A stretch of 64,000 nt of DNA from Dysgonomonas sp. PF1-14 (GTDB taxonomy: Bacteria; Bacteroidota; Bacteroidia; Bacteroidales; Dysgonomonadaceae), in the NCBI RefSeq assembly GCF_029892965.1, contig NZ_JARXWN010000016.1, forward strand, positions 1 through 64,000, in the 5' to 3' direction. The position numbers and the translations under genes were made by a program. The notes under the pieces are model-generated. The model was not told the DNA's origin. It was given only the letters and a program-made list of their open reading frames with translations, and made no database searches. Positions 13,938-61,274 of this stretch are shown one piece after another; within the stretch, counting starts at the first letter, position 1; every line of letters starts with the position of its first letter.

Positions 13938-16900
13938 ATGTTTCAGAGAGTTTTTTGCATTCTCACCTGTTTATATTTGTCCTTATCTGCATTCGGGCAA
14001 AAATTTAGTTACCAAAGTTTTAGCAATATAACTCTGGATGCTGAAGCTTCAAACATCAACTGTTTTGCACAGGATAAGCAGGGATTGATATGGATAGGAT
14101 CTAACAAAGGCTTGTTCAGTTATGATGGTTTTTCGTCACAACAACATACTACCGAAGCCACTATTACACAGATATACTGTATTGTAATGATAGACGATGA
14201 GCACCTCTGCTTCGGCAGCGATAAGGGGGTCTTCTTCTACAATTACAAAACAGACCAATATGAGGTGCAAGACATTGTATTCCCCACTGATGTAAGAACA
14301 ATGGTGATTATGGACAATATCCTGTGGATAGGTTCACTCAATGGGCTGTACAGATATCACCTGAACAGCAGAAAATTGGAAAACGTCAGTTTGAAAGATA
14401 ATCCCGGACTACCTCACGAAACAATATATTCGATAATCAGATCAGAAGACAATATTTATATAGGGACTTACAACGGACTTTGCAGATATACCCCCACCTC
14501 CGGAAAGTTTGAAAAAGTAGCCCTGCCATACGATTCTAAACGAAGCAACCAGTTTGTAAATTACCTGTTGGAAGATAAGAGCCACAAATGCATCTGGATA
14601 GGGACCGAAGGTAACCTATTCAAATATGCGCCTGCTACAAACAAGGTGGAGACGTTGAACCTATTCTTCAACAATTCAGTAAAATCACTGTCAATAGACC
14701 ATGAAGAGAATCTGCTAGTAGGAACAGATAACGGACTTTATATATTCAACGAAACAACAAACAGCATACAACATGTAGTACATGACTCACGCAATGACAA
14801 ATCGCTGGCAAATAACATTATCTGGAGTATATTCACCGACAAAGAGCAGAATATCTGGCTGGGAACTGACTACAATATTTCACTATTGCGATTTAATAAA
14901 GCATTCCAGTTTATTCCCATATCGCAAATAACAGGGATAGGGGACGGGAACCGTTTTCATTCCATATTTAAGGATTCGCGCAATAACTTCTGGCTGGGAG
15001 GAACAAACGGGCTGATATTCTCGACATCACTCTCCAACCCCGAATCGTCTATATGGTACAGGATGGGAGATTCGCGGTATCCAATTCCACATAACCGAAT
15101 CAGACATATCTATGAAGATAAAGATCGGAATCTGTGGATTGCCACAGATGGCAGTATAAGCCGTTATGACTATAATCGTAAACAATTTGTACATTATGCT
15201 ATCGTAGACAGTACTCATACATATAATTCAAACTGGGCATACCATATCTTTGAAGATAAAAGCGGCCGTTTATGGATCGCAACCTGTCTGGGAGGAATAT
15301 TTGCAGTAGACAAACAAAAACTGATGCAATCGCAAGGCAGCTATATCGCCGAACGGAATTACACAATGAAAGACGGGCTCAGCGGTATGTTTATAAACCA
15401 GATAATACCCGACAAAGAAGGTAATGTGTGGGTTCTCCTCTATCAGAACGGCATTAACAAGATAGATACAAAGCAAAATAAGATTTTCAAAATCCCTGCA
15501 AATCATGGCACAAAGGATGAAAACCCTAATTATATTCTTTGCGACAGCGATGGCTTCATCTGGGTAGGGCTCAGAGGCGGACTGGTTCGCATCGATCCGA
15601 AAAATGACGAATCAAAACGAATCAAATTCAACGAATTCGACAATGGAGAAATCCTTGCTATGGTAGAAGAGATACAGCACATCTGGTTGTCTACCACAGA
15701 TGGCGTATGGGCTGTAGACAAGCAAAACCATCATGCTCAAAGGCTCAACATTACCAATAAGGCTTTTACAGCAGGCTTTTTTGACAAATCATCCGGGAAT
15801 ATTTATCTGGGAGCGAGTGACGAACTGGGCGTACTCTCCTCTTCATCACTCAAAGAAGCAAATATGGAGCAGCCTATTATACTTACCTCTCTGTTTATAA
15901 ATGAAGAACTTTACAGACCGGGCTCTAATACAGGCAATATAAGCATCCGCTATGCAGACAATATAGAACTGAATTACAGACAAAACAATCTTATTTTTGA
16001 ATTCTCTGATCTTACTTATTCACAGGAGGATAACAATAAATTTGTGTATAAACTCAACAACTGGGATAAAGAGTGGAATGTACTGAAGCAAAACACAAAC
16101 CGTATCTCATATTCCAATCTCGAATATGGCAAGTATCAGCTACAAATCAGCAAACTAGACTCATCAGGAAAACCATCTGACATTGTACTTGTTTTCGCGA
16201 TAAATATTACACCTCCTTGGTACCTTACCGTCTGGGCTAAGATCATATACGCATTTTTGTTTCTAGGTATAATCTTATGGGTAGTCAATTTTTTCAGAGT
16301 CAGGAATAATCTGCGAATAGAACGCATCGAAAAGGAAAAAACAGTGGAACTCTCCAACCTGAAGATGGATTTCTTCACAAACGTATCGCACGAGTTTAAA
16401 ACCCCGCTAAGCCTCATTATAGCCCCTGTAAGTAAACTGCTGCTGGAAACAAAAGACAACTATAAAAAGAAGCAGTTGGAACTGGTACAGCAAAACGCGC
16501 TGAAACTAAATTCACTGATACGGCAGATTATAGACTTCAACAGGTCGGATAATGTAAACTCGGGACTGATCTTATCAAGAGTTGAGTTTGTAGAATTTGC
16601 ACGCAGCCTGTTCTCCATCTACGAAGAAGGATATAAGGATAAGAGGCTTACATTTTCTTTTACCTCAAATAAAGATAAAATATATACTGATATAGATGTA
16701 CTGAAAATAGAAGCCGTACTGAACAATCTCATTGCTAATGCCTGCAAATATACCGAGCAGGGCAATATAAGCCTGGAACTCGACTATAACGAAGACGGAA
16801 AGAATCTAACAATACAGGTAGCCGACACCGGTATGGGCATTCCCGAAAATGAAATACCATACGTATTCGAACGGTTCTACAAATCGTCGAAGACAGCTAA

Positions 16901-49965: not shown

Positions 49966-50013
49966 CTGCTTAAGAATATTCTTTCTATAACCATAATAAT
50001 TGCACGAAAATAA

Positions 50014-50289
50014 TTTTAACTAAAACCTCACATTTCTTACAAGTTTATTAGTTTATAGTCTACTAGCTTGCTAGCTAGCATTATTTTCTGTTTTTCGTAT
50101 GGGCTGACACGCGGGTCTGCCCGTTTATCTGATCTTCGGGCGAACACATGGGTTCGCCCCTACAAGCTCGTTCCCTTTTTGGGCTTTGCAACCCCCTCTC
50201 ACTTTGGAGAGGGTCGGGGTGAGGTGAATTTTAACTAAAACCTGACAATAGTTACAAGTTTATTAGTTTATAGTCTATTAGCTTGCTAG
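50014..50289 (+). repeat. Direct repeat pair of family 1 flanking GC-rich palindromes
   Basis: Copies at 50014-50074 and 50229-50289 are each 61 bases. Both start TTTTAACTAAAACCT and share TTACAAGTTTATTAGTTTAT then AGTCTA-TAGCTTGCTAG, with a few differences. They bracket the hairpin cluster at 50101-50213 like the ends of a small inserted element or a duplicated target. Confidence 0.85.
50101..50213. repeat. Cluster of three REP-like palindromes
   Basis: GGGCTGAC...GTCTGCCC (50101-50123, imperfect), GGGCGAAC-ACATGG-GTTCGCCC (50138-50159, perfect 8-base arms) and CCCTCTC-ACTTTG-GAGAGGG (50194-50213, perfect 7-base arms with outer ACCCC/GGGGT). Sequences of this look are scattered through many bacterial genomes between genes. 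They may also terminate the minus-strand M20 transcript. Confidence 0.75.
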
Positions 50290-50342
50290 TTTGATTTTTC
50301 CTATTTCTTGTACACTAGAACTCTATAATCTAGTACACTAGT

Positions 50343-50381
50343 TTTTAACTAAAACCTTACAAACCCGACAGAAATTTCAAC
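50343..50381 (+). repeat. Dispersed intergenic repeat, family 1, third local copy
   Basis: Starts TTTTAACTAAAACCTTACAA then CCCGACAGAAATTTCAA. Nearly identical to the inverted copy at 39491-39530, and sharing only the first 15 or so bases with the two copies just upstream, so the family has at least two subtypes. Confidence 0.8.
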
Positions 50382-50478
50382 TTTTAAATTACATACGCTT
50401 CGCCGCTGCACTCATAATTTATAATTGACTTCGTCTTATAGATAAATCTTTTCCTTCTTTATACGCTTATCCTATAAC

Positions 50479-51936
50479 TCACCTCTTCACCCTGTAATCG
50501 AGTGCTGGCTTACGGTCTCCCAACAAAGGCTCATACTTAAAATCGGCTCCCCTGCGCTTCTCAAATTCTTCTTTGATTTCTTTTACTAATTCAGGATTTG
50601 TATATAATGCGATAGCCGAAAGGCTGAATACCTTTGCTGTATTGATCAAAGATTTTGTGCCGATGGTGGTTCCTCCCACTGCGACGTTCTGCCAACTATG
50701 TCCTGCACTGCCGGGTACGAATGTAGCTGTATTGAAGCTTACGGTAGGAACAACCCAGCTTATATCGCCCACATCGGATGAACCACCTCCTGTTGAAGGT
50801 TTCTCGTCCGCCAATGGCTTCACCGATTTCACTTCTTCCAATGCACTGATATCCTTATTTAATCCTTTCGCTATTTCTTCCGCAAAAGCTCTTTCGCGTG
50901 CATCGTAATGCACACCTCCCACAATTTCCAGATTACGTTGTACGAGTTCCGACAATTTCCGATTATTCAGACGCTCGTAAAAGCCGGAGATAATTTCCGA
51001 TTTTACCTTTGTCTGAGTTCCCAAAGCTGCGCCTTCGGCAGCCTGACCAATCCAAGCTACGAGTTCTTTCAGTATCTCCCTTTTCGGACTGCGGATATAG
51101 TATGATACTCTGGCATAGTCAGGTACTACATTCGGTGCTTCCCCGCCATTAGAAATCACATAATGTATGCGTGACGAAGTAGGCACATGTTCGCGAAGCA
51201 GATTGACCATATAATTGAGAGCCTCTACTCCATCGAGAGCTGAACGACCTTTATCTGGACTTCCCGCTGCATGGGTAGCAATACCATAAAAACTATAATC
51301 TACCATCTGTATGGCTGTGCCTGTACCTGTAGTAACTCCATTACCTGTAGCGGGATGCCAGTCGAGAACAATATCGACATCTTTGAACAAGCCGTCACGT
51401 ACCATATAGACCTTTCCGCCACCGCCTTCTTCGGCCGGAGTACCGAAAACTTTTATCGTCCCTGTATGCTTTTCTGCATTGAGCCACTGTGCGATAGCAA
51501 CAGCACCGGCGGCGGCTCCCACACCGAAGGCATTATGTCCGCAACCATGTCCGGCTCCACCTTCGACTAAAGGTTTACGATATGGTACTGTATCCTGCGA
51601 CAGACCAGGTAGCGCATCGAACTCAGCAAGCACAGCTATCACAGGATGCCCCGATCCGTAGCTGGCAACAAATGCCGTAGGCATACCGGCTACTCCTGCC
51701 TCAACTGTAAATCCATTACTTTTAAGGTGATTCTGCAACAAAGCTGAACTCTTCGTTTCCAGAAACCCTAGTTCGGGATCGCTCCAAATTGTTTTCTGTA
51801 GCTTATCATATACAGAGAAGGATTTGTCCAGATAACTTATAGACACATTATCTAAAGGGCTGCTTTCTTTGTCTGCCTGTGCAAATAATGCAGAGGCTGA
51901 TACTATAAGGGAGATTATCAGAAGTATTTTTTTCAT
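50479..51936 (-). CDS. Exported M20 amidohydrolase, AbgB-like
   Basis: Periplasmic metallo-amidohydrolase (signal 1-20, ALFAQ) of the M20 peptidase family. Metal-site motif GHGCGHNAFGVG (C132, H134), catalytic EE pair at 169-170 in TPAEEGGGG, and HPATG at about 196 match the AbgB (p-aminobenzoyl-glutamate hydrolase) branch of M20D. The inserted dimerisation domain runs about 215-325. Such enzymes hydrolyse amide bonds of N-acyl or peptide-like amino acids. Here it follows SusC, SusD and a TlpA-like protein in the same direction, 253 bases after the TlpA gene, across a hairpin repeat, so it may be co-regulated rather than strictly co-transcribed. Exact substrate unknown. Confidence 0.9.
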   Translation of the reverse strand: MKKILLIISLIVSASALFAQADKESSPLDNVSISYLDKSFSVYDKLQKTIWSDPELGFLETKSSALLQNHLKSNGFTVEAGVAGMPTAFVASYGSGHPVIAVLAEFDALPGLSQDTVPYRKPLVEGGAGHGCGHNAFGVGAAAGAVAIAQWLNAEKHTGTIKVFGTPAEEGGGGKVYMVRDGLFKDVDIVLDWHPATGNGVTTGTGTAIQMVDYSFYGIATHAAGSPDKGRSALDGVEALNYMVNLLREHVPTSSRIHYVISNGGEAPNVVPDYARVSYYIRSPKREILKELVAWIGQAAEGAALGTQTKVKSEIISGFYERLNNRKLSELVQRNLEIVGGVHYDARERAFAEEIAKGLNKDISALEEVKSVKPLADEKPSTGGGSSDVGDISWVVPTVSFNTATFVPGSAGHSWQNVAVGGTTIGTKSLINTAKVFSLSAIALYTNPELVKEIKEEFEKRRGADFKYEPLLGDRKPALDYRVKR

Positions 51937-52030
51937 ATTGGTTATTATATTAATGCGAAGTAGTAGTTAGATAAATTTACGTGAGTTTGATATAATAACA
52001 TCTAAATATCAACCTGTTACGTATTTTTAT

Positions 52031-52126
52031 TGTGAACTTTGTGTAAACCTTGTGTTCTTTGTGGTTGAGTCTTATTTCTTACCACAAAGGACACGAAGAT
52101 AAGCCGCAAAGAACACAAGATTTTAG
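52031..52126. repeat. Repeat family 2, inverted cluster between M20 and TlpA genes
   Basis: CTTGTGTTCTTTGTGGT (52049-52065) is mirrored by ACCACAAAGGACACGAAG (52081-52098) across a 15-base loop, and a further GCAAAGAACACAAG follows at about 52106-52119. The unit AC-CACGAAGGACAC-AAG also appears at 53208-53232 and 57918-57955. The inverted pair can form a long hairpin in the intergenic transcript. Confidence 0.8.
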
Positions 52127-52189
52127 TCAATCGTTCTGGCAAACAAAGAGCTTGTTTAAATTTTATAGCAAATCTTATTTATATCCTAT

Positions 52190-53176
52190 TTATTTTAATA
52201 AGCCAGCCAATGTTTTACCTAATTCTTCTCCTTTGAGGTTCTTAGCTACAATCACCCCATCCTTATCTACCAACACATTGGATGGTATAGCTCTCACTCC
52301 ATACAGTTTGGCAGGCTCACTATCCCAGAATAATAGATCGGAAACATGAGTCCATGTGAGGTTATCTTTCGCTATAGCAGCAGTCCATGCCTCTTTGTTC
52401 TTATCGAGCGATACGGCAAATACATTAAATCCCTTCCCTTTATACTCGTTATATACTTTTACGATATTAGGATTCTCCTTGCGGCAAGGACCACACCACG
52501 ATGCCCAGAAGTCGATCAGCAAATACCCTTTACCCAGATGGTCGGATAATTTTACAGGATTCCCGTTCGGATCGTTAGCCGTAAAATCAGGAGCTTGCTT
52601 ACCTACCGAAACTACTTCCAGCGTTTTTGTCAGATCATTCAGAACCTGTACGTATGGCGTTTCCCATAACGATGAATCGAGCAGTTGTACATTCGCCTTT
52701 ATTTCTTCCGGAGATAGCCTGTATGAAAAATCGCGATACAGCGCATAGGCCGAAACCAAAGCCTTAGGATTAGCTTTGATAAACTCGTCTATTTTCACAT
52801 CTTTATCTTTCTTATACGCCACATAAAGGTCTTGCAATGCAGATCCCGTAACTACACTATTTCTGTAATAAGAAGATGAATCGAGCTTCACAGTTACAGG
52901 ATTATTGTCCAGAAACAACAGCAAGGAACCCTGTGTCGTATCCACACTCAAACCGTATATTTCGGGTAGCTGAACATTCCTCGAGAAGCTGAATTGTCCG
53001 TTCGCTATTTCGGTCGAATCTATTACATAATACATCTTATTTTCAAACTTCTGTAAATACACCTTACCACTCGGAATACCTTCTACTGTACCGGACAGCG
53101 ACAGATTTCCCTGTTCTTTCTTTGTACAGGATATAACGCTGACAAGTACAATCATTGAAAACAATATCTTTCTCAT
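52190..53176 (-). CDS. TlpA-type thiol-disulfide lipoprotein with DUF4369-like domain
   Basis: Lipoprotein (lipobox VISC, Cys17) of 328 residues. The N-terminal DUF4369-like beta domain (about 22-110, LSGTVEGIPSGKVYLQ) precedes a helical linker and a thioredoxin/AhpC-TSA domain (about 190-328). The redox site is WASWCGPCRKEN with C228 and C231, and the cis-proline loop is AIPSNVLVD. It would reduce or isomerise disulfides in the cell envelope. It lies 86 bases after susD in an operon with SusC, SusD and a binding protein; a redox protein in an importer operon suggests a thiol-containing or disulfide-linked substrate. Confidence 0.92.
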   Translation of the reverse strand: MRKILFSMIVLVSVISCTKKEQGNLSLSGTVEGIPSGKVYLQKFENKMYYVIDSTEIANGQFSFSRNVQLPEIYGLSVDTTQGSLLLFLDNNPVTVKLDSSSYYRNSVVTGSALQDLYVAYKKDKDVKIDEFIKANPKALVSAYALYRDFSYRLSPEEIKANVQLLDSSLWETPYVQVLNDLTKTLEVVSVGKQAPDFTANDPNGNPVKLSDHLGKGYLLIDFWASWCGPCRKENPNIVKVYNEYKGKGFNVFAVSLDKNKEAWTAAIAKDNLTWTHVSDLLFWDSEPAKLYGVRAIPSNVLVDKDGVIVAKNLKGEELGKTLAGLLK

Positions 53177-53207
53177 ATCTTTTATTTTATTATTATATTA
53201 TTTTTTT

Positions 53208-53232
53208 ACCACGAAGGACACAAGGATTTTTA
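53208..53232. repeat. Repeat family 2 copy between TlpA and SusD genes
   Basis: ACCACGAAGGACACAAGG with a T-rich tail. It is followed by CTCATAATTTATAATT at 53248-53263, a 16-base sequence also present at 50411-50426. Confidence 0.75.
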
Positions 53233-53262
53233 ATTCATAACTTATAACTCATAATTTATAAT

Positions 53263-54801
53263 TCACTCTGAAGGTTTCCATCCGTTATCCCTTGCTGTTG
53301 CAAGCTCTCCGTATATACCTGTTTCCCCTGCATGCTCGATACCTCCGAAACTATACAGATCAGCCCTGATAAGTTCCAGTTGTTTCTGAGGAATCGGATA
53401 TTCGGTAGGTGTACCCCCTATGAGAAGATCGTTGCGCCTCATAAATGTGAACGGAACAAAAGCACCACCCGCACCGTCTATCTCAACAGCATATTCATAA
53501 TGCAATGCTTTTCTCAAAGCATCTTCCGTAGCAGCTACATCAGGCAACAGACCTTTCGCTTTTCGGGAGGCATCAGGTGCATTCAACTCTGCTGCTGCTC
53601 CTGTATAATCTTTAAGGCAGAATTTTGATTCAGCTCTCAACAGGCGCAATTCTTCTGTCAGGAAATAAGGATTGATAGCACCGGGCACATTCAGATTGTT
53701 GCTGTTGTTTGCCCATCGTTTTCTTTTATAGTTGCTGAATAATCCCCGCCCACGCGCTTCCAGCAGAATACCGAAGTTAGTCGTATATTCAAAATACTCG
53801 TGAAAGCGTTTGTCATCCGTCTCTACAGGGCCAAGTATGGTAGGTGCGGCAGGGTAGTAATTCGGATAGTTCCCTGTATTATCGGCCAGATAAGCTACTT
53901 TGATATCGACAGGCAGATAAGCTCCGCCGCTATACAGATACACCAAACGGTCTACCAACGCATTATAATAACCTCCGGGCACTGTCGAGATAAGAAAATC
54001 TGATGTCAATCCTTTTTCGGCGTAAGCCAGAACACGCTTCCAATGATTTTCGCCGAGAGCCTGCGCTTCGGCTTTATCTCTTGCCTGTGATGACAATATA
54101 CGTGCAGCTATCGAATTTGCCAGTCTGACGAATTGCTCTTTATCGATAGGTGTTTCTATCAGAAAGTCAAAATTGAAATCAGATGAAGCTTCGGCCAGTG
54201 CTATCGATTTATCTATCAATGCAATTCCGTTTGCAATCAGGTCTTTATACGAATCAGGGAATGCAGCCTCTTTGACAGAGGTATTATCTACAATTATACC
54301 GCGATCGTAGATAACACCCAGATAACCCTGTGATACTCCTTTGGCATAATATGCCCCGATAAGGCAGTCGGTAGTACGGTCGTTCCCCGCATCGTCATAG
54401 GCTTTTATGTTCTGATTCTCGATAAGGTCTATCACTTTGGTGGCATCCAGATTGGCCTGATAGAAATTGTTATAGAACGGAGTCAATGTGGCTGCATACC
54501 CTCTGGCAGCAGAGTTGTTGACAATCCTCACTCTGGGCTCTTTTGCATAATCCCACCACGAACCATTTCCGTTTGTATTCGTTGTCTGGTCGGCAAGCAG
54601 GCTGAAATGTACTCCGGCTGCACTCGTTGTGGTATTGAATGTTGTTTGCACACTACTCGTAGTCAATGAATAACTAAAAGTTTTTATTTTTGTTGCCGCT
54701 TCTTCGTTGGTCAGTGTAGACGGATCGTCGAAATCCATAGATTCGCACGATGCGAAAGCTATTGCAAGCAGAAATATATATGGATATAAAATTGTTCTCA
54801 T
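53263..54801 (-). CDS. SusD/RagB-family lipoprotein, divergent
   Basis: Surface lipoprotein of 512 residues (lipobox FASC, Cys19). It is related to SusD/RagB but its helical core is less canonical: FYQANLDATKVIDLIENQN (about 108), IGAYYAKGVSQGYLGVIYDR (about 147-166), ANSIAARILSSQARDKAEAQ (about 227-246), and a C-terminal ALHYEYAVEIDGAGGAFVPF with FTFMRRNDLL. It pairs with the SusC immediately upstream in transcription (6-base gap). The divergence from the three glycan-locus SusDs in this window fits a RagB-like role, possibly peptide or other non-sugar binding. That role is inference from the TlpA and M20 neighbours. Confidence 0.9.
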   Translation of the reverse strand: MRTILYPYIFLLAIAFASCESMDFDDPSTLTNEEAATKIKTFSYSLTTSSVQTTFNTTTSAAGVHFSLLADQTTNTNGNGSWWDYAKEPRVRIVNNSAARGYAATLTPFYNNFYQANLDATKVIDLIENQNIKAYDDAGNDRTTDCLIGAYYAKGVSQGYLGVIYDRGIIVDNTSVKEAAFPDSYKDLIANGIALIDKSIALAEASSDFNFDFLIETPIDKEQFVRLANSIAARILSSQARDKAEAQALGENHWKRVLAYAEKGLTSDFLISTVPGGYYNALVDRLVYLYSGGAYLPVDIKVAYLADNTGNYPNYYPAAPTILGPVETDDKRFHEYFEYTTNFGILLEARGRGLFSNYKRKRWANNSNNLNVPGAINPYFLTEELRLLRAESKFCLKDYTGAAAELNAPDASRKAKGLLPDVAATEDALRKALHYEYAVEIDGAGGAFVPFTFMRRNDLLIGGTPTEYPIPQKQLELIRADLYSFGGIEHAGETGIYGELATARDNGWKPSE

Positions 54802-54807
54802 AATCGT

Positions 54808-57800
54808 TTAAAACTGAATTGTTAGTTTAGCTGAAATAGTACGGTAAGTAGGGTAATTGAAGAAGTCGCCCGAACGTGCGCTGCTGTATCCCTCACCGTC
54901 TACATTTACTCCTTTAAAGTTTGTCAATTGGACTAGGTTGCGGCCAATGAGTGAAAAGCGTGCATTTCGTACCAATTTATTTACACCTAGTTTCTTTACC
55001 GGAATCTGATAAGACAAGGCCAGTTCTCTCAGGGCTACATATCCGCTGCTTTCTACCCAATAGTCGGTAGGTAGTTGAGCATTGAATACTTGTGTAGTAA
55101 AGTTGAGAGGATAACCCATCCGTGCTGTCTGATCCGAGAATTCTGACCGATAGAGATAAGTAAGATACTGCACTGTTTCATTATATTTATCTCCGCCCTG
55201 CTTCCAGTCTATCACTGCATAGAGCGAAAAAGGCCCGTATGTGAAAGTATTGCTAAAGCCTACAAGAAAATCAGGTTGTGCATCTCCGATTTTCTTCGTA
55301 TTTCCTGTGGCAGAGTTCACATAAAAGACCGGAGCTTCGTCTTTAGTTCCCAATTTGCTTTTCTCCACAACGATACCTACATTGTTTACCACATAGTCAT
55401 TTACGCGTTTTGTACCGTCTCCCGCATTTGTTACATAGCCTTCGTTATTGGTTTCCAGTTGAGACAAGTCTGTAAAGATGCTGTATCCCCAGATAGCAGA
55501 TGTACTCAGCCCTGCTGCACGTCGGTAATCACCATCGGTAAACTCAGGCACATCGCCCAGTGATGTAATCTTACTGCGTACGCGGCTGAATGTAACCCCT
55601 GTGTCCCATGAGAAATTCTTACGGTCAATAACCCTACCCGATATTTCCAGTTCTACCGAGTTCGACTTCACCTTTCCCAGATTGTCATAGATGGTAGCAG
55701 AACCCGAAAGCGGAGCAAATGAAGGTACTTCAATAAAATCGTGTTTGCTTTTCGAAAAGGCATAATTGAATTGTACATTCAGTATATTGGCAATAATAGC
55801 GTCGAAGCCTATCTCAGTTTCTTCGGTGATTGCCCGTTTCAGATCAGTATTGTCATTCTGAGTATAGCTCACACCGCCCGAACTGGTAAGTGTCACCTTA
55901 CTGTCTTTTGCCCCGAAAGGAGGTAAGCTTCCTGCCTGACCGTAAGCTACACGCAATTTAAGTTCTGTTACAGGATCCAGTTTTAGATCTTCAGTAAGGC
56001 GATAGGCTACTGCCGCACGTGGAAAGAATGCCCAACCGACATCACTACCGAAACGGGAGCTTTTATCTAATCGCCCAAGCAGGTCTATAAATAGCTTGTC
56101 TTTCCATCCTGCTTTTACATTGAGAAAATGACCATAGTTTACTGTCTTTTCCCACTCGGAATCTATCGTTCTGGTTGAAGCTTCTGTAACATCAAGGGAT
56201 TTGACCGGAGCTGTCAGGTTATAACCGTTGGCGCTGAACCCGTCCAGTTCGGTAGACTCATACACAGACTTAACGGCTGCACCGAAATCGAGATTACCGA
56301 AAGTCTTATTATAGTTGACCTGCACCTGCCCGTTCTTAGCACTTATATTTCGCGTCGATTTTCCATAATACCCATTATTCTTCGTTACATCCTTCGATGG
56401 CGTTTCGTATCCTATCGGGTAATAATCTTCAGTATTGTAGAACTGCTTCTGAATGGAATATGAGGCTTCGGCACTCAGTTGCTCAGTGAGTTTGTATTTC
56501 GCCTTACCGCCGATCAACAGATTCTGGGTTTTATATTTATATTCTCTTACGGTCAACTCATACAACGGATTAACCAGTATTGTCGACAACAGGTCGGCTC
56601 CATCGGGAGCAAGCATATAATAACCAGCAGCATCTTTTTGTTTCAGGTTGACAAAGGGCTCTACCAGCTGAGTAGCGTACAGAAGCCCGTTACTTCCGTC
56701 AGAAGTAGCATACGAAGGGGTATCATCTACATTATATTGTGTGGTCAGTTCTACCTCTAATTTATCGGTAAGCTTGTATCCCAGATTCGATAAAAAGCTT
56801 CGTCTTGTATCTGAATCTATCGCATCGGATATACCGCCTTTCGACTGGTTTTGGAAAGAGACATAAAAATTATACTTATCCCCGCTTGCTGATAATGAAA
56901 CTGCGTTGGAATAAAAAACTCTTGTACCCAGCACATTGTCGACATTGTTATAATAATCCTTGTATGGATGCAGATTTACCGAGTAACCATTATCCTGATA
57001 GTCGATAGTGCGCTTTCCGGCAGTCAATGCAAATGAGTTATCTCCATTTACTTTGAAGTGGTGATATTTCGAAGTGGCTGGGGTGCGCAGTACACTGTTG
57101 AAGCCAAGTTCATTATCCAATACCACTGAGAACTTCTCACCTTTCCCTTTCTTGGTGATAACCTGAATAACACCACCTTCTCCGCGTGTACCGTACAAAG
57201 CTGATGCTGCTGCACCTTTCACTACCTCGATAGTCTCAATATCGCCCGGATTGATGTCCGACAAAGACAAGGCAGTCACAAAGCCGTCTACTACGATCAG
57301 GGGCTTTATATTTCCCGATACGGATTTAGCGCCTCTGAGATAGACCGTCGCTCCCTGATTGCCTTCCGACTGATCGATACGAAGCCCTGCTACTTTACCC
57401 CTTAATGTAGTGGAGGCATCTGTGGCAGGCACAGTATTTATCAGGTTATTATCAACTTTTGTAAGAGCAAAGGACAGCCCCTTTCTGGTAGTTCCCTGAG
57501 CTACACCTGTTACAACGATTTCGTCAAGAATATTCTGACTTTCGGATAGTGAGATCGTAATGTCTTCACCCGATTCGTAAACATCTATCTCCTGTGTTTT
57601 ATAGCCTAAGAAGGAAATAAGAAGCGTAATAGGAAGCGGCTTATTTACAGTCAGTTCAAATTTACCGTCAAAATCTGCCTGAGCTGCATTGGTTGTCGAT
57701 TTTACTTTTACCAATGCCCCCGATACAGGGATACCGCTACGATCGTCCAATACTTTCCCTTTTATTGTGACTTGCGCCTGTGTGACAAGCGAGGAAAAGA

Positions 57801-57882
57801 TAAGGAAAATGAGGAACAGATAAGGCTGTTTTTTCTCCTGTAAGGATAATATTTTACCCTTAAATAATTGTATAATTGTCAT
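54808..57882 (-). CDS. SusC/RagA-family TonB-dependent importer
   Basis: Outer-membrane importer of 1024 residues. The signal peptide is preceded by an unusually long N-region (MTIIQLFKGKILSLQEKKQP), with the hydrophobic core at about 20-35 and cleavage after TQAQ. Then a carboxypeptidase-regulatory-like domain (VTIKGKVLDDRSGIPVSG), plug start DEIVVTGVAQGTTRKGLSFA, TVYLRGAKSVSGNIKPLIVV, ASALYGTRGEGGVIQVITKK, and a barrel ending TISAKLTIQF. The GVAQGTTRKGLSFA plug sequence is unlike the GYGT-RKSDLTG form of the other SusCs here and marks a different subgroup. Forms a pair with the divergent SusD. Confidence 0.94.
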   Translation of the reverse strand: MTIIQLFKGKILSLQEKKQPYLFLIFLIFSSLVTQAQVTIKGKVLDDRSGIPVSGALVKVKSTTNAAQADFDGKFELTVNKPLPITLLISFLGYKTQEIDVYESGEDITISLSESQNILDEIVVTGVAQGTTRKGLSFALTKVDNNLINTVPATDASTTLRGKVAGLRIDQSEGNQGATVYLRGAKSVSGNIKPLIVVDGFVTALSLSDINPGDIETIEVVKGAAASALYGTRGEGGVIQVITKKGKGEKFSVVLDNELGFNSVLRTPATSKYHHFKVNGDNSFALTAGKRTIDYQDNGYSVNLHPYKDYYNNVDNVLGTRVFYSNAVSLSASGDKYNFYVSFQNQSKGGISDAIDSDTRRSFLSNLGYKLTDKLEVELTTQYNVDDTPSYATSDGSNGLLYATQLVEPFVNLKQKDAAGYYMLAPDGADLLSTILVNPLYELTVREYKYKTQNLLIGGKAKYKLTEQLSAEASYSIQKQFYNTEDYYPIGYETPSKDVTKNNGYYGKSTRNISAKNGQVQVNYNKTFGNLDFGAAVKSVYESTELDGFSANGYNLTAPVKSLDVTEASTRTIDSEWEKTVNYGHFLNVKAGWKDKLFIDLLGRLDKSSRFGSDVGWAFFPRAAVAYRLTEDLKLDPVTELKLRVAYGQAGSLPPFGAKDSKVTLTSSGGVSYTQNDNTDLKRAITEETEIGFDAIIANILNVQFNYAFSKSKHDFIEVPSFAPLSGSATIYDNLGKVKSNSVELEISGRVIDRKNFSWDTGVTFSRVRSKITSLGDVPEFTDGDYRRAAGLSTSAIWGYSIFTDLSQLETNNEGYVTNAGDGTKRVNDYVVNNVGIVVEKSKLGTKDEAPVFYVNSATGNTKKIGDAQPDFLVGFSNTFTYGPFSLYAVIDWKQGGDKYNETVQYLTYLYRSEFSDQTARMGYPLNFTTQVFNAQLPTDYWVESSGYVALRELALSYQIPVKKLGVNKLVRNARFSLIGRNLVQLTNFKGVNVDGEGYSSARSGDFFNYPTYRTISAKLTIQF

Positions 57883-57917
57883 GTTCTAATGCTTTTTTAG
57901 ATAACTCTTTTCTTTTT

Positions 57918-57955
57918 ACCACGAAGGGCACGAAGTTTTTTCACGAAGGACACAA
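57918..57955. repeat. Repeat family 2 copies between SusC and binding-protein genes
   Basis: ACCACGAAGGGCACGAAG followed at once by TTTTTTCACGAAGGACACAA: two tandem degenerate units. With 52031-52126 and 53208-53232, all three gaps longer than 75 bases within this gene set carry the unit. Confidence 0.75.
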
Positions 57956-57961
57956 TCAAGC

Positions 57962-58888
57962 CTATCTCAGGTTCATTGTATATAATACCTCATCTAGCTT
58001 CTTTATCTGATGCGATAGTAATTTATCGTCCGGATTCAAGATACCGTAGCTGTGGTTGAACGCTTTACCTTCTGTCAGAACCCATACAAGAAATTCTTTC
58101 ACCGATTTGTTTTCGGCAGTATATGCAAAGCCGATATTCTCTACGGGAATGAGGTTGACAGGTTCGGATTCCAGCAAACCCATCAGATTATCGATATCAA
58201 CCGATTCGCCAAAATAACTCCGATATTCCTTTTTAACATCTAATGGGAGAATGGAAATATTGGCTTTCAGCTTACGACTACTAATGTCGAATATATTACC
58301 TAAAGCATTGAAAGTTATACCCGTTTTATCCTTCTGTATGGCATTAATAAGAAATACATCATCTCCTGAGATTTTCTTGCCTTTCAGACTTGAAGAGGTG
58401 TAACCGAAATACGATGCAAAGCTATGTGCCACAGATTCTTCATTGTTTCCCGAATAGATGGTTACTTCCGTAGCAGGAGTTGAAGAATCCTCATCTTCGT
58501 CGGGTATATCCTTCTCGAAAAACAGGTCTTTAATGCGCTTATCATTCAGCTTCTTTTTAGAGAGTTCGCCTAGTAAGGGGTTTTCTTTTCCTGCAACAGG
58601 CAGGATAGCATAACGACCGAAGAACAGTACCTGTTCGCTGACTTGCTGCTTATTCTTATTAGCTATAACCACTTTAAGCGAAATGTCATCTGCTTTCACA
58701 GTGTTGTCTGCCAGCTTGATGCTTACATCAGGATTTGCCTTTGAGTATTCGGTTATCCATTTTTCGATAAGCGGAGATGCGAAGCGCGTACTTTTTATAT
58801 ATATGGTTTCTTTTGCTTCATCCTGCGCAGATACAGATGCAGTGATAGCAAACACGAATAGTGCCAGTATAAGACTTCTCGTTTTCAT
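57962..58888 (-). CDS. Periplasmic PstS-like substrate-binding protein, no cognate ABC genes
   Basis: Exported protein of 308 residues (signal 1-21, SVSAQ) with the look of a type-2 periplasmic-binding domain: an opening strand IYIKSTRFASPLIEKWITEY (about 29-48), NPDVSIKLADN, a hinge strand around FFGRYAILPVAG (about 90-101), YSGNNEESVAHSF (about 145) and a final EFLVWVLTEGKAFNHSYGIL near 265-284. A PstS-type TSGGG motif is absent, so phosphate is unlikely. No ABC permease or ATPase is near. It is first in an operon with SusC and SusD, after a long leader carrying a Cys-rich ORF. It might hand substrate from SusC to an inner-membrane carrier. Confidence 0.78.
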   Translation of the reverse strand: MKTRSLILALFVFAITASVSAQDEAKETIYIKSTRFASPLIEKWITEYSKANPDVSIKLADNTVKADDISLKVVIANKNKQQVSEQVLFFGRYAILPVAGKENPLLGELSKKKLNDKRIKDLFFEKDIPDEDEDSSTPATEVTIYSGNNEESVAHSFASYFGYTSSSLKGKKISGDDVFLINAIQKDKTGITFNALGNIFDISSRKLKANISILPLDVKKEYRSYFGESVDIDNLMGLLESEPVNLIPVENIGFAYTAENKSVKEFLVWVLTEGKAFNHSYGILNPDDKLLSHQIKKLDEVLYTMNLR

Positions 58889-58943
58889 AATCTTTCTTTT
58901 ATTTATTTGATATTTTATTAATATTGATATGTACAGAGATTCA

Positions 58944-58966
58944 TCTATATGATGCTACGATATAGA
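58944..58966 (-). promoter_or_regulatory. AU-rich hairpin in leader of binding-protein operon
   Basis: TCTATAT and ATATAGA (7-base arms) enclose a 9-base loop, 55-80 bases before the start codon. A second small stem AGCC-GGAT-GGCT (59006-59017) overlaps the stop codon of the Cys-rich leader ORF. Neither is a strong terminator, so a control mechanism would have to act through translation or Rho. Confidence 0.35.
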
Positions 58967-59015
58967 ATAATCTGACAGAAAAGATAAAATAGGTTTGGGA
59001 AGATAAGCCGGATGG

Positions 59016-59114
59016 CTATAATGTGGAATTAACAACAACACATCGACATTCGCATGCCGCAAAGAGGAGAAGATAATAATAACTGGGAAGTGAAATTAAT
59101 AACCTGAGAATCAT
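59016..59114 (-). CDS. Candidate Cys-rich leader peptide, 32 residues
   Basis: Short ORF within the 5' leader of the binding-protein/SusCD operon, about 90 bases after the expected transcription start. It reads MILRLLISLPSYYYLLLF then AACECRCVVVNSTL: a hydrophobic Leu/Tyr-rich start and three cysteines in five residues near the end. This is the layout of attenuation-type leader peptides in which a cluster of one amino acid stalls ribosomes when that amino acid is scarce. Cysteine-responsive leaders of this kind are known in other bacteria; whether this one is translated is unproven. The downstream genes (TlpA-like, M20, importer) fit a sulfur or cysteine theme. Confidence 0.5.
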   Translation of the reverse strand: MILRLLISLPSYYYLLLFAACECRCVVVNSTL

Positions 59115-59209
59115 ATATCCCGGAGGGACTATGATCTTCGCTCTTTTGTTGTCTGATAAACCTTTTCATTTTTAAGATATTTAATCCTTTTTTGTTTTTT
59201 TTACAGAGA

Positions 59210-59240
59210 CAAAATTATGGATTGGCATCGTTATACCAAA
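59210..59240 (-). promoter_or_regulatory. Complete Bacteroidetes promoter for binding-protein/SusCD operon
   Basis: On the minus strand TTTG (59237-59240), a 19-base spacer, then TAATTTTG (59210-59217): an exact fit to the TTTG-N19-TAnnTTTG consensus. It is the best promoter in the window. Transcription would start near 59204, leaving a leader of about 315 bases. Confidence 0.75.
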
Positions 59241-59267
59241 TACCATTATTGTGGTATTTTTATACCA
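59231..59267. promoter_or_regulatory. Operator-like inverted and direct repeats over the -33 element
   Basis: AAATACCA (59238-59245) and TGGTATTT (59252-59259) are perfect 8-base inverted arms with a 6-base spacer, flanked by direct copies of TTATACCA at 59231-59238 and 59260-59267. The left part overlaps the -33 box of the minus-strand promoter, a placement suited to a repressor or activator dimer. Confidence 0.5.
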
Positions 59268-59331
59268 TAGATGAGGTAAATATAGGTATAGGAAGTAAAG
59301 TGTTTTTAAGATACGGGATAAAAGAATTAAT

Positions 59332-59339
59332 TATCTTTG
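59332..59339 (+). promoter_or_regulatory. -7 box for DUF2269-like gene
   Basis: TATCTTTG fits TAnnTTTG and ends 24 bases before the start codon at 59364. No convincing -33 element. Confidence 0.5.
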
Positions 59340-59363
59340 TAAAAATCTAACTGAATCTACGTC

Positions 59364-59867
59364 ATGAAAAAGCTAAGCCCACAGGGAGTAAAAATCCTAA
59401 AGATGTTTCATTTATTTTTTGCTATTCTATGGATTGGCGGAGGACTGGCATTAGTCATCTTATTCTTTTCCGTTAATCCGGCTAATGGGGATGAACTCTA
59501 TATGAAATCACGTATTATACAGATAATCGATGATTTTCTGATTATACCGGGAGCTATGGCCAGCCTGTTGATCGGTATCATTTACGGAATATGGACAAAC
59601 TGGGGATTCTTTAAACACAAATGGTTAATAGTAAAGTGGATAATGACTATCCTACAGATATTATTCGGAACATTTGTATTAGGCCCTTGGGTAAATGAGA
59701 ACGTAGAAATTGCATCGGCATTACGTGATGCGGCAATGGATGATGCTACCCTACTACATAATGTGAAAATGTCACAGATATGGGGTACCGTACAAGTCGC
59801 TATACTTGTCATTACCTTTATTGTTGTTTCCGTTCAGAAGCCATGGAGACCTAAAAAGAAAGCATAA
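59364..59867 (+). CDS. DUF2269-like integral membrane protein
   Basis: Inner-membrane protein of 167 residues with four hydrophobic helices at about 10-32, 53-73, 83-105 and 136-155. FHLFFAILWIGGGLALVILF (about 14-33) with an early His, and KHKWLIVKWIMTILQILFGTF (about 83-103), are typical of the DUF2269 family, which has no assigned function. Lysine-rich ends flank the bundle. It stands alone, divergent from the binding-protein operon and convergent with the MATE gene. Confidence 0.75.
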   Translation: MKKLSPQGVKILKMFHLFFAILWIGGGLALVILFFSVNPANGDELYMKSRIIQIIDDFLIIPGAMASLLIGIIYGIWTNWGFFKHKWLIVKWIMTILQILFGTFVLGPWVNENVEIASALRDAAMDDATLLHNVKMSQIWGTVQVAILVITFIVVSVQKPWRPKKKA

Positions 59868-59871
59868 AAAG

Positions 59872-59922
59872 AACCTCTCCCTTCAGATCAAAGTCCTTCC
59901 TCTATATCTAAGGAAAGGGGTT
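59872..59922. terminator. Possible bidirectional terminator
   Basis: AACCTCTCCCTTCAG and CTAAGGAAAGGGGTT can pair with several mismatches across about 20 bases between the convergent DUF2269-like and MATE genes. Imperfect and without clear T runs. Confidence 0.35.
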
Positions 59923-59954
59923 ATTCGTCTAAAGGGAAAAGTTGTTTGTTAAAA

Positions 59955-61274
59955 CTATAAGTTTTTATTCTGCCATCTGTTCCTTTTCAGATATACAAAG
60001 GACAGCACAAGTAACACTAAGACATACAATTGTTCGGCAGTCCAGTACACTGCAAGTGGTATATCAGGAGTCTGATGCAGTATAAATAGATAAAATAGAT
60101 AGATAGCGATATTTACCATCTGAAATATGAATGCTATTCTGGTATTACCTGTACCGATTACTGTATTGCAATAGATATAAGCCGGTACGGAAATAATAAA
60201 TGTGGATAACATTACGCAGAACGGATAAAATGCAGTCCTGATAACTGATCCATCGTTTGTGAACAATCCTAAGAGGTTATCTGAGAAAACAAAAGCCAGG
60301 AATATAAGAGGAATCCCTATTACATAATTTAATACAATTACACGACGACAAACCGGCATTACCTGTCCCGCCTGTTTTGCCCCGATAAGATTACTTACTA
60401 ACGAAATAGTCGTAGTTGCAAATGAATTGATAATTACAAAGAAAATCATTGAGATACTTCTTACTACATTCGCAGCAGCGAGTTCACACTCCCCCAGATG
60501 TTCAATCGCTACAAAGAAAAGAAACCAAGGCGCAATGCAGAAGAACGACCGCACCATTGTCCAGACAGATATGCTTAACAAATGGAGTGACATCTTTAAA
60601 TCGAAAGCTATATACAATCCATACTGTCTCTTATCTGTATATTTCCACATATATAGAGCTAAAAACAATAAGCCGACAAGTCCTGCAAGTGATGAACCCA
60701 TAGCCGCCCCACTAATTCCTAATCGGGGAAATCCTGCTTTCCCGAATATCAATAAGTAGTTGAACAGAACATTACAGACTACCATTATAACAGAATTGGC
60801 TGTGAGAATCTTAGTATTCGTTGTCCCAATAAAAAAAGCCCGGATAGCCAGTAAAGGAAAGGCAAACAGGAAGCTGTAATCCCGCCATTTCATATAGTGC
60901 ATAGTGGCCTGATAAATATTGTCCGATGAGATTACTGCACGAAGCAGGAATGGCGAAAACAATTTGGATAAAGAAAAAACCACAACAGCAAATACGGATA
61001 GAAAGATCAACCCTTGATAAAATACTTTACCGGTATCTTTATACCGCTGCTCTCCGTTTCGTCTGGCAATAACAACCTGTACTCCGAGACTAAACCCAAA
61101 TCCGAGCATGTAAATAGCTGTATAATACATTGCACCCAAAGCTGATGCTCCCAAATCTATTTGACTGACATGTCCCAGAAAAATGGAATCTGTTAAATTA
61201 ATCAACTGCTCCATAAGCAGGCTCACCATAATAGGTAGATTGATGAGCCCTATTTGTTTATATGTATAATTCAT
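59955..61274 (-). CDS. MATE-family multidrug/metabolite exporter
   Basis: Inner-membrane antiporter with twelve hydrophobic segments, 439 residues from the ATG at 61274 (MNYTYKQIGLINLPIMVSLL), the usual start context for this family; the frame runs on to 61328 without leader character. MATE features include LMEQLINLTDSIFLGHVSQI near the N-terminus, GFGFSLGVQVVIARRNGE in the first half, and a duplicated second half with NSFATTTISLVSNLIGAKQA. Substrate is probably a cationic drug or metabolite exchanged for sodium or protons. No regulator gene is adjacent. Confidence 0.92.
   Translation of the reverse strand: MNYTYKQIGLINLPIMVSLLMEQLINLTDSIFLGHVSQIDLGASALGAMYYTAIYMLGFGFSLGVQVVIARRNGEQRYKDTGKVFYQGLIFLSVFAVVVFSLSKLFSPFLLRAVISSDNIYQATMHYMKWRDYSFLFAFPLLAIRAFFIGTTNTKILTANSVIMVVCNVLFNYLLIFGKAGFPRLGISGAAMGSSLAGLVGLLFLALYMWKYTDKRQYGLYIAFDLKMSLHLLSISVWTMVRSFFCIAPWFLFFVAIEHLGECELAAANVVRSISMIFFVIINSFATTTISLVSNLIGAKQAGQVMPVCRRVIVLNYVIGIPLIFLAFVFSDNLLGLFTNDGSVIRTAFYPFCVMLSTFIISVPAYIYCNTVIGTGNTRIAFIFQMVNIAIYLFYLFILHQTPDIPLAVYWTAEQLYVLVLLVLSFVYLKRNRWQNKNL

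Follow-up and report, generated by a model that had tools for sequence, protein, structure and literature searches.

The window analysed here is a stretch of 64,000 nucleotides from Dysgonomonas sp. PF1-14, and coordinates without a locus label refer to it. On the reverse strand lies an import-type operon with genes for a putative binding protein, a SusC/RagA-type TonB-dependent importer, a lipoprotein-like protein in the usual place of SusD, a TlpA/ResA-like protein and an M20 amidohydrolase (Table 1). A gap of 513 bases separates the M20 gene from a symporter gene behind it, which leaves the symporter's membership in the operon uncertain. The label of the first gene comes from the initial annotation and reflects only a resemblance; the family searches gave it no support. 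Upstream of the first gene are a short leader ORF that ends in three Cys codons, a promoter and a palindrome.

SusC importers are mostly regarded as glycan importers. In one relative (L133), genes for an M14 carboxypeptidase, a cystathionine beta-synthase-like protein, a cystathionine gamma-synthase and MetQ lie near the operon. Because of the M20 gene here and the M14 gene in this relative, our guess is that the cargo is perhaps sulfur-containing peptides or N-acyl amino acids. The gene make-up of the operon differs among relatives. L105 (14223–20932) has extra SusC/SusD-like genes, and L116 (7044–18003) and L115 have a second leader–SusC unit after the symporter gene. By eye, the N-terminus of the lipoprotein-like protein resembles that of the protein at 14168–15691 of L111 (Massilibacteroides vaginae).

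Table 1. Positions of the operon genes and leader features in the window
Feature	Coordinates	Strand	Remarks
Sodium:dicarboxylate-type symporter (SDF), PF00375	48790..49965	-	
M20 amidohydrolase	50479..51936	-	TIGR01891, above cut-off
DUF4369 + AhpC/TSA-thioredoxin protein, TlpA/ResA-like	52190..53176	-	Family matches
Lipoprotein-like protein in usual SusD place	53263..54801	-	No Pfam or NCBIfam match
SusC/RagA-type TonB-dependent importer	54808..57882	-	TIGR04056, 496 bits, above cut-off
First gene of operon, putative binding protein	57962..58888	-	No Pfam and no NCBIfam match; one PDB match, E 0.41
4-bp stem AGCC-AUCC-GGCU	59006..59017	-	Leader fold
32-codon ORF of the initial annotation, MILRLLISLPSYYYLLLFAACECRCVVVNSTL	59016..59114	-	+1 frame of the conserved leader; without conservation
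Conserved leader ORF, 46 codons, MKRF...GMRMSMCCC*	59029..59169	-	Full peptide MKRFIRQQKSEDHSPSGIYDSQVINFTSQLLLSSPLCGMRMSMCCC
Three Cys codons TGT TGT TGT	59032..59040	-	Immediately 5′ of stop; putative stall site
Arg codon CGA ahead of Met/Cys cluster	59050..59052	-	Spelling invariant in orthologue leaders
Pyrimidine-rich, G-poor tract	59053..59112	-	C 0.23, G 0.13, pyrimidine 0.68; possible Rho-loading tract
Promoter TTTG-N19-TAATTTTG	59210..59240	-	First T is last base of palindrome
Palindrome ATACCACAATAATGGTAT	59240..59257	.	Candidate regulator site just upstream of promoter; in 21 of 26 leader loci

Distribution and reading frame of the leader ORF

A search of 101 genomes of the family with the first-gene protein gives 29 matches in 27 genomes. 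The 24 matches with at least 40% identity form the orthologue set, and 23 of them are evaluable, L049 having no upstream DNA. A short ORF with a Cys/Met cluster lies upstream in 21 of these 23 operons; a clear leader is missing in L054 (unclear) and L055 (none). In the window leader 4 Cys fall inside 12 codons, where 300 dinucleotide shuffles average 1.07 (P 0.003), and this Cys-count test gives P < 0.05 in 18 of the 23 orthologous leaders (exceptions L033, L050, L051, L054 and L055; the +1 frame was scored in L036), with all P values indicative only as the loci are related. Five more distant matches (23–26% identity) show no leader by eye, and one of these five paralogues (L056) passes the Cys-count test at P < 0.05. 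The same protein searched in genome contigs gives ten loci, of which L105 duplicates a contig of family genome G019. The leader is absent from L106 and L111, degenerate in L108 and present in the remainder (by eye in L110 and L114). In the order-wide search 22 of 295 genomes contain a match. Outside the family a leader accompanies two of the five matches at 32–39% identity (L209 and L211), and an RMCC or CCC cluster accompanies none of the 15 at 25–29%. Rfam gives no match in seven relative loci and, in positions 50000–60000 of the window, nothing other than two chance miRNA matches below the gathering score.

The initial annotation proposed a leader peptide with a CxCxC segment, encoded by the 32-codon ORF of Table 1. 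That ORF is present as a string, and it overlaps a second one. The codons ATG CGA ATG TCG ATG TGT TGT TGT TAA read MRMSMCCC* in the conserved frame and CECRCVVV in the +1 frame. We compared the frames in 26 window-type leaders, three of which (L145, L172 and L189) were found via the palindrome. Within the ORF spans there are 53 stops in the +1 frame and 53 in the third frame, the count in frame 0 being none by construction. Cys residues number 84 in frame 0, 61 in the +1 frame and 5 in the third frame. Among the final 16 codons, Cys is spelled TGT 52 times and TGC 32 times, and the MRMCC frame is the only one in which this exchange is silent. The peptide body varies freely (L032 and L105, for example, differ by 27 changing and 6 silent codons), while its start, mostly MK, and its C-terminal cluster are kept. 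The close orthologue L105 has just two of the three final Cys.

Could the CECRC ORF be the working leader all the same? In the window it begins with ATG and encodes three Cys, and the Cys count of the +1 frame is considerable. The two closest orthologues (L105 and L116, 74%), however, lack any type of start codon in this frame, which speaks against CECRC as a working element. Across the 26 leaders it has a start codon in 13 and an ATG in 6, and it is interrupted by the stops counted above. Its Cys residues are a by-product of the pattern ATGnnnATGTG, and CECRC is not kept in leaders with a CCCMxMCM end. We give this reading next to no chance. The initial annotation had itself taken conservation in orthologous leaders as decisive for its ORF. 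Since the overlapping MRMxMCCC ORF is conserved and the 32-codon ORF is not, the latter falls by that standard. Judged from these comparisons the leader ORF is real, but it had been read in the wrong frame.

The window-type ORFs end mostly in RMCC, RMCCC or similar, with the variants MRMHCC, RMCMPC, RMCMC, MRGCM and GCCRH. The Met codons equal the Cys codons in constancy, suggesting that the sensed signal may be Cys plus Met. The Arg ahead of the cluster is spelled CGA in 13 of 13 orthologue leaders, a codon used for 5.9% of the Arg residues in 30 window genes. Over all 26 leaders the count is 30 of 31, which is biased because only CGA-spelled leaders were fetched among those found by motif. 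In L119 a second R-M, after the cluster, is spelled CGC. Among 30 pattern loci not chosen for CGA, Cys leaders are found with 5 of the 8 CGA matches and 0 of the 22 others; these 22 include one intergenic MRMFLL, without Cys. By eye, distant leaders with CGA before Met or Cys are seen in L109 (Bacteroides luti), L112, L110, L114 and L211. In our reading of the sequence, a slow CGA codon would set a pause, although its spelling may also matter at the nucleotide level.

Such constancy of spelling, beyond amino-acid demand, would also fit a conserved word CGAATGTGTTG that works as an RNA or DNA element, with the surrounding ORF incidental. The third positions of the Cys codons vary, however, and, in loci not chosen for either feature, an open frame runs from an ATG into the word and ends at a stop a few codons later. 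The word is spelled otherwise in the CCCMxMCM leaders and Rfam has no match for it, which leaves this explanation very improbable.

Companion genes and the palindrome

Leaders of this type also precede other genes. In 14 regions around motif matches (L115–L128) the leader is found in 11; the matches in L120 and L128 lie inside genes and are not leaders, and L127, fetched for another pattern, has no leader. A stricter motif returns 30 loci, several of them repeating those of L115–L126, with 10 leaders by place and stop and 20 that are not leaders. Judged from N-termini, eight of the ten leaders precede SusC-type-looking genes. The other two (L253 and L257) precede metY, the O-acetylhomoserine sulfhydrylase gene (TIGR01326, 675 bits with a cut-off of 495), and here the RMCC* leaders lie 110–138 nt upstream. 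It is these metY leaders that tie the leader type most directly to sulfur amino acids. The exact word CGAATGTGYTGYTGYTRA has no match in 393 genomes of an order sample with few family members, and the window does not match it either, so the spelling looks confined to close kin. A looser word gives 56 matches in 101 genomes, compared with 5 for the reversed control, among the matches listed; much of this excess consists of non-leaders, because 20 of 30 returned loci are not leaders. The pattern TGYSARTGYMGNTGY proved too unspecific as a leader search.

A hairpin-like stretch of about GAACACTTCCTCCTCCGACGGCAATTGGTATTGGAAGTGCTC is seen shortly before the SusC start in L118, L121, L123, L124, L125, L126 and L172. 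Similar stretches are intergenic in L119 (8718–8728) and L133 (7356–7366). Rfam gives no match in five loci with this stretch. The word CTCCGACGGCA is present in 16 of 227 loci, and a stretch of this type is absent from the window (longer word, two mismatches allowed).

The promoter named in the initial annotation is confirmed as an exact match. The pattern TTTG-N19-TAnnTTTG occurs once in the window, where 0.37 occurrences are expected and at least one is found in 31 of 100 shuffles. The TTTG at −33, exact in the window, is present at that place in few of the relatives listed, whereas the palindrome is conserved. In the form ATACC-N8-GGTAT, the palindrome is found no more than 130 nt from the leader ATG in 21 of the 26 leader loci; its distance to the end of the −7 TTTG is 30 nt in 20 of these and 29 nt in L050. 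It is missing from L107, L113, L115, the second leader of L116, and L122. Of the metY leaders, L253 has the palindrome at 30 nt and L257, by eye, a copy with one mismatch at 30. The centre of the palindrome is near −43, where activators that contact polymerase usually bind. We regard the palindrome as a candidate site for an activator-type regulator.

The form ATACCRNNNNNNYGGTAT occurs six times in the genome of the window, with one occurrence for the control. The six sites are this leader, a position before cysK (TIGR01139), one unrelated intergenic place and three positions inside genes. In 25 genomes of the genus the palindrome has 87 occurrences and the reversed control 37. The distinct sites number 78, with 35 inside genes and 43 intergenic. 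By hand count, 31 of the 43 intergenic sites lie beside sulfur genes or leader-bearing operons: cysK (15), metN/metQ (3), a Cys/Met PLP-enzyme gene (2) and leader-bearing operons (12, one shared with metN). The scripted class count is 33 of 43, as it adds L149, where cysK is 577 nt away, and L155, where the ORF is a chance one. The 30-nt spacing is found in just 1 of 16 cysK sites.

A second copy with one mismatch (59262–59279) adjoins the first palindrome in the window, and similar pairs are seen in L105 and L116. In two genomes the palindrome ATACCGTACATACGGTAT also occurs between a pair of genes that have no evident link to sulfur (L137, 1501; L147, 1501).

Terminators, leader folding and the pyrimidine-rich tract

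In one genus (g10) the leader has a terminator-bearing sister form. It is found in ten loci (L035, L037, L038, L039, L040, L041, L042, L044, L045 and L047), nine of them distinct since L035 appears the same as L038. CCCMxMCM or a close variant forms the cluster, and an intrinsic terminator lies 21–33 nt 3′ of the Cys ORF in 16 units across the ten loci. The palindrome is found in 2 of the 9 distinct loci (L044 and L045), at a spacing of 35. L035, L037, L038, L039, L041 and L047 carry a tandem pair of Cys/Met ORFs in the 600 nt ahead of the first gene. A separate terminator belongs to each ORF, an arrangement that looks like two serial attenuators.

The terminator helix shows two-sided changes in 15 cells, a value that none of 500 shuffles reaches. 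A candidate antiterminator is formed by the ORF tail (GUAUCGG and neighbours), for which the 5′ arm of the terminator is the best pairing partner in 14 distinct units. The mean z of this pairing is −1.96, with P < 0.05 in 9 units and P > 0.05 in 5. In alignment A1, which holds 12 of the 14 units (the first units of L041 and L047 are left out), the antiterminator helix is 98.8% paired, compared with 23–49% when slid. Covariation in this helix is not beyond shuffles (269 of 500 as high), and a short-arm version of the test is weak (mean z −0.79 over 17 entries, among them the unrelated L054). As judged from sequence, the layout of the terminator form is that of classical attenuation.

The same terminator rule finds no intrinsic terminator in the 26 window-type leaders. 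A simple scan of the window gives a terminator-like 6-bp stem at 59044–59059 followed by ATGTGTTGTT, which is not counted as a terminator. The 60 nt before the CGA codon have a mean composition of C 0.27, G 0.10 and pyrimidine 0.67 in 23 leaders, compared with C 0.19, G 0.22 and pyrimidine 0.47 in 715 coding windows; the tract is missing in six leaders (L046, L048, L053, L117, L126 and L145). The near-duplicates L105, L115 and L052 are excluded from this analysis and from that of stop-region folds. As the window type lacks a terminator and its cluster usually stands behind a pyrimidine-rich tract, we infer Rho-dependent or translational control.

The initial annotation also described a stem across the stop of its ORF, where pausing could change leader folding. 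The fold does contain the 4-bp stem. As a whole, however, the leader is no more stably folded than shuffled sequences (z −1.44, with 11 of 100 shuffles as good). The ORF concerned is without conservation, and a regulatory role of the stem is not supported. At the matching position L105 and L116 have, by eye, a 6-bp stem. Over 29 leaders the mean z is −0.52 for a hairpin at the stall site (L125 scored at a later site) and −0.44 for one in the stop region, where the control window gives −0.10 and P < 0.05 is reached in 3 of 29. Hairpins at these places are strongest in the metY leaders, L118, L123 and L048.

These values bear on a purely translational output of the same sensor in the window lineage, in which a stalled ribosome refolds the leader and frees the start of the first gene. 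The lack of a terminator in 26 leaders agrees with it, and a citing paper places cysteine genes of M. smegmatis under translation attenuation, the kind of control cited for polycysteine leaders in mycobacteria. A conserved hairpin at stall site or stop is not found, however, pairing with the start region was not found either, and the fold of the window leader is as unremarkable as given above. We consider this output possible but doubtful. It is highly improbable that this is an ordinary leader gene, one that senses nothing and only boosts translation of the gene behind it through ribosome reinitiation. Such a role has been proposed for leader genes generally (PMC4833913, in the text available), but it would leave the constant Cys/Met end, the terminators of relatives and the sulfur-gene company unexplained.

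A probable sulfur amino-acid switch and known leader systems

In our best explanation, which we consider probable, the ORF at 59029–59169 of the reverse strand would be a ribosome-read sensor of sulfur amino acids, behind a promoter with a palindromic regulator site. The sequences offer for this one conserved frame, its Cys/Met cluster, the terminators and possible antiterminator pairing of relatives, the palindrome and the metY leaders. The proposed sensing step follows from the leader anatomy and the terminator-bearing sister form. When Cys-tRNA, and perhaps also Met-tRNA, is plentiful, ribosomes would pass MRMSMCCC and leave, and the importer operon would stay low. In shortage, the ribosome would stall at the Cys codons beside the stop and the operon would be expressed. 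In g10, the terminator 3′ of the ORF would compete with the antiterminator formed with the ORF tail. In the window lineage, stalled and queued ribosomes would cover the pyrimidine-rich tract and keep Rho off; alternatively, the stalled ribosome would free the start of the first gene. Translation of the leader, stalling, the part of Rho, the regulator with its ligand and the cargo are predicted elements of this scheme. The best reading of the whole is a putative starvation switch for sulfur amino acids, built from an activator site and a leader attenuator. As the same sensor seems to be coupled to different outputs in the sister forms, sensing and output are separately testable.

The initial annotation was right in its direction. 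A leader with Cys codons before an import operon with sulfur links agrees with the terminator-bearing relatives, with RMCC* before metY and with the palindrome common to cysK and met genes. Its scope was too narrow.

More tentatively, RMCC-stop may be a dedicated stall cassette of Bacteroidales that senses both sulfur amino acids and, with the activator palindrome, makes up a two-layer sulfur regulon; we would not bet on it as yet. In the cassette, the slow CGA codon, Met codons and hungry Cys codons at the stop would hold the ribosome at the edge of the Rho-loading tract. The regulon would span outer-membrane SusC importers, metY, cysK and a Met transporter. No description of a two-layer sulfur regulon in this phylum was found in the literature search. 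The same search, with preprints and most subscription journals outside its scope, found no cysteine leader peptide in Bacteroidota, which is weak evidence of absence. Leader-peptide-like small ORFs in long 5′ UTRs of B. thetaiotaomicron are described in the available text of PMC7366714. If the Cys/Met leader switch holds, it would assign some SusC importers to sulfur nutrition, serve as a cis-acting marker for sulfur importers in Bacteroidales and extend cysteine leader control from Actinobacteria to another phylum.

Cysteine leader peptides are described in Mycobacterium, Propionibacterium and Bifidobacterium (Seliverstov 2005, PMC1262725; also Canestrari 2020). Those of Mycobacterium have no obvious terminator, and Rho was suggested for them in what the source calls a weak prediction (PMC1262725). 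As far as the available text of these papers goes, the present leaders resemble them in having a short ORF whose Cys codons form a run close to the stop, in a position ahead of sulfur genes and in lacking an obvious terminator. They differ in the phylum, in Met being as constant as Cys, in the fixed CGA Arg codon, in their place before SusC importers and in having sister forms with full terminators. There is also no leaderless start here, the leader ATG lying about 40 nt after the promoter. The terminator-bearing relatives resemble trp/his/ilv attenuators (M. tuberculosis ilvB1, PMC13236596, in the text available) in their regulatory codons, a candidate antiterminator in the ORF tail and a terminator past the stop. 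Unlike these, they use Cys and Met codons, often in two tandem units, and head importer rather than biosynthesis genes, and the window form has no terminator.

Two further systems come close in other respects. TnaC of E. coli, which senses free tryptophan, is one of them; it is mentioned in PMC9973294. As with TnaC, a ribosome stalled close to the stop would shield the RNA from Rho, but hungry Cys/Met codons are the simpler cause here. Like the present leaders, CruR and CutF (PMC9426467, PMC9973294) have a Cys-containing uORF before a TonB-dependent transporter and a C-terminal motif at the stall site, according to the available text. A copper uORF of the CruR kind would let a Cys/Met-rich nascent peptide bind metal and set Rho-dependent termination before the importer. 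Cys and Met are copper ligands, and Bordetella CruR heads the operon of a TonB-dependent transporter and works with CXXC, the arrest motif RAPP and Rho (PMC9426467, in the part available). In the present leaders, however, a RAPP or proline motif is absent, the bodies of the peptides lack conservation, and six peptides have no match to DUF2946 or another Pfam family, one L27_2 match with E 0.13 lying below the cut-off. The company is that of cysK, metN/metQ and metY. A copper reading is disfavoured by this sulfur-gene company together with the lack of DUF2946, and we hold it to be very unlikely.
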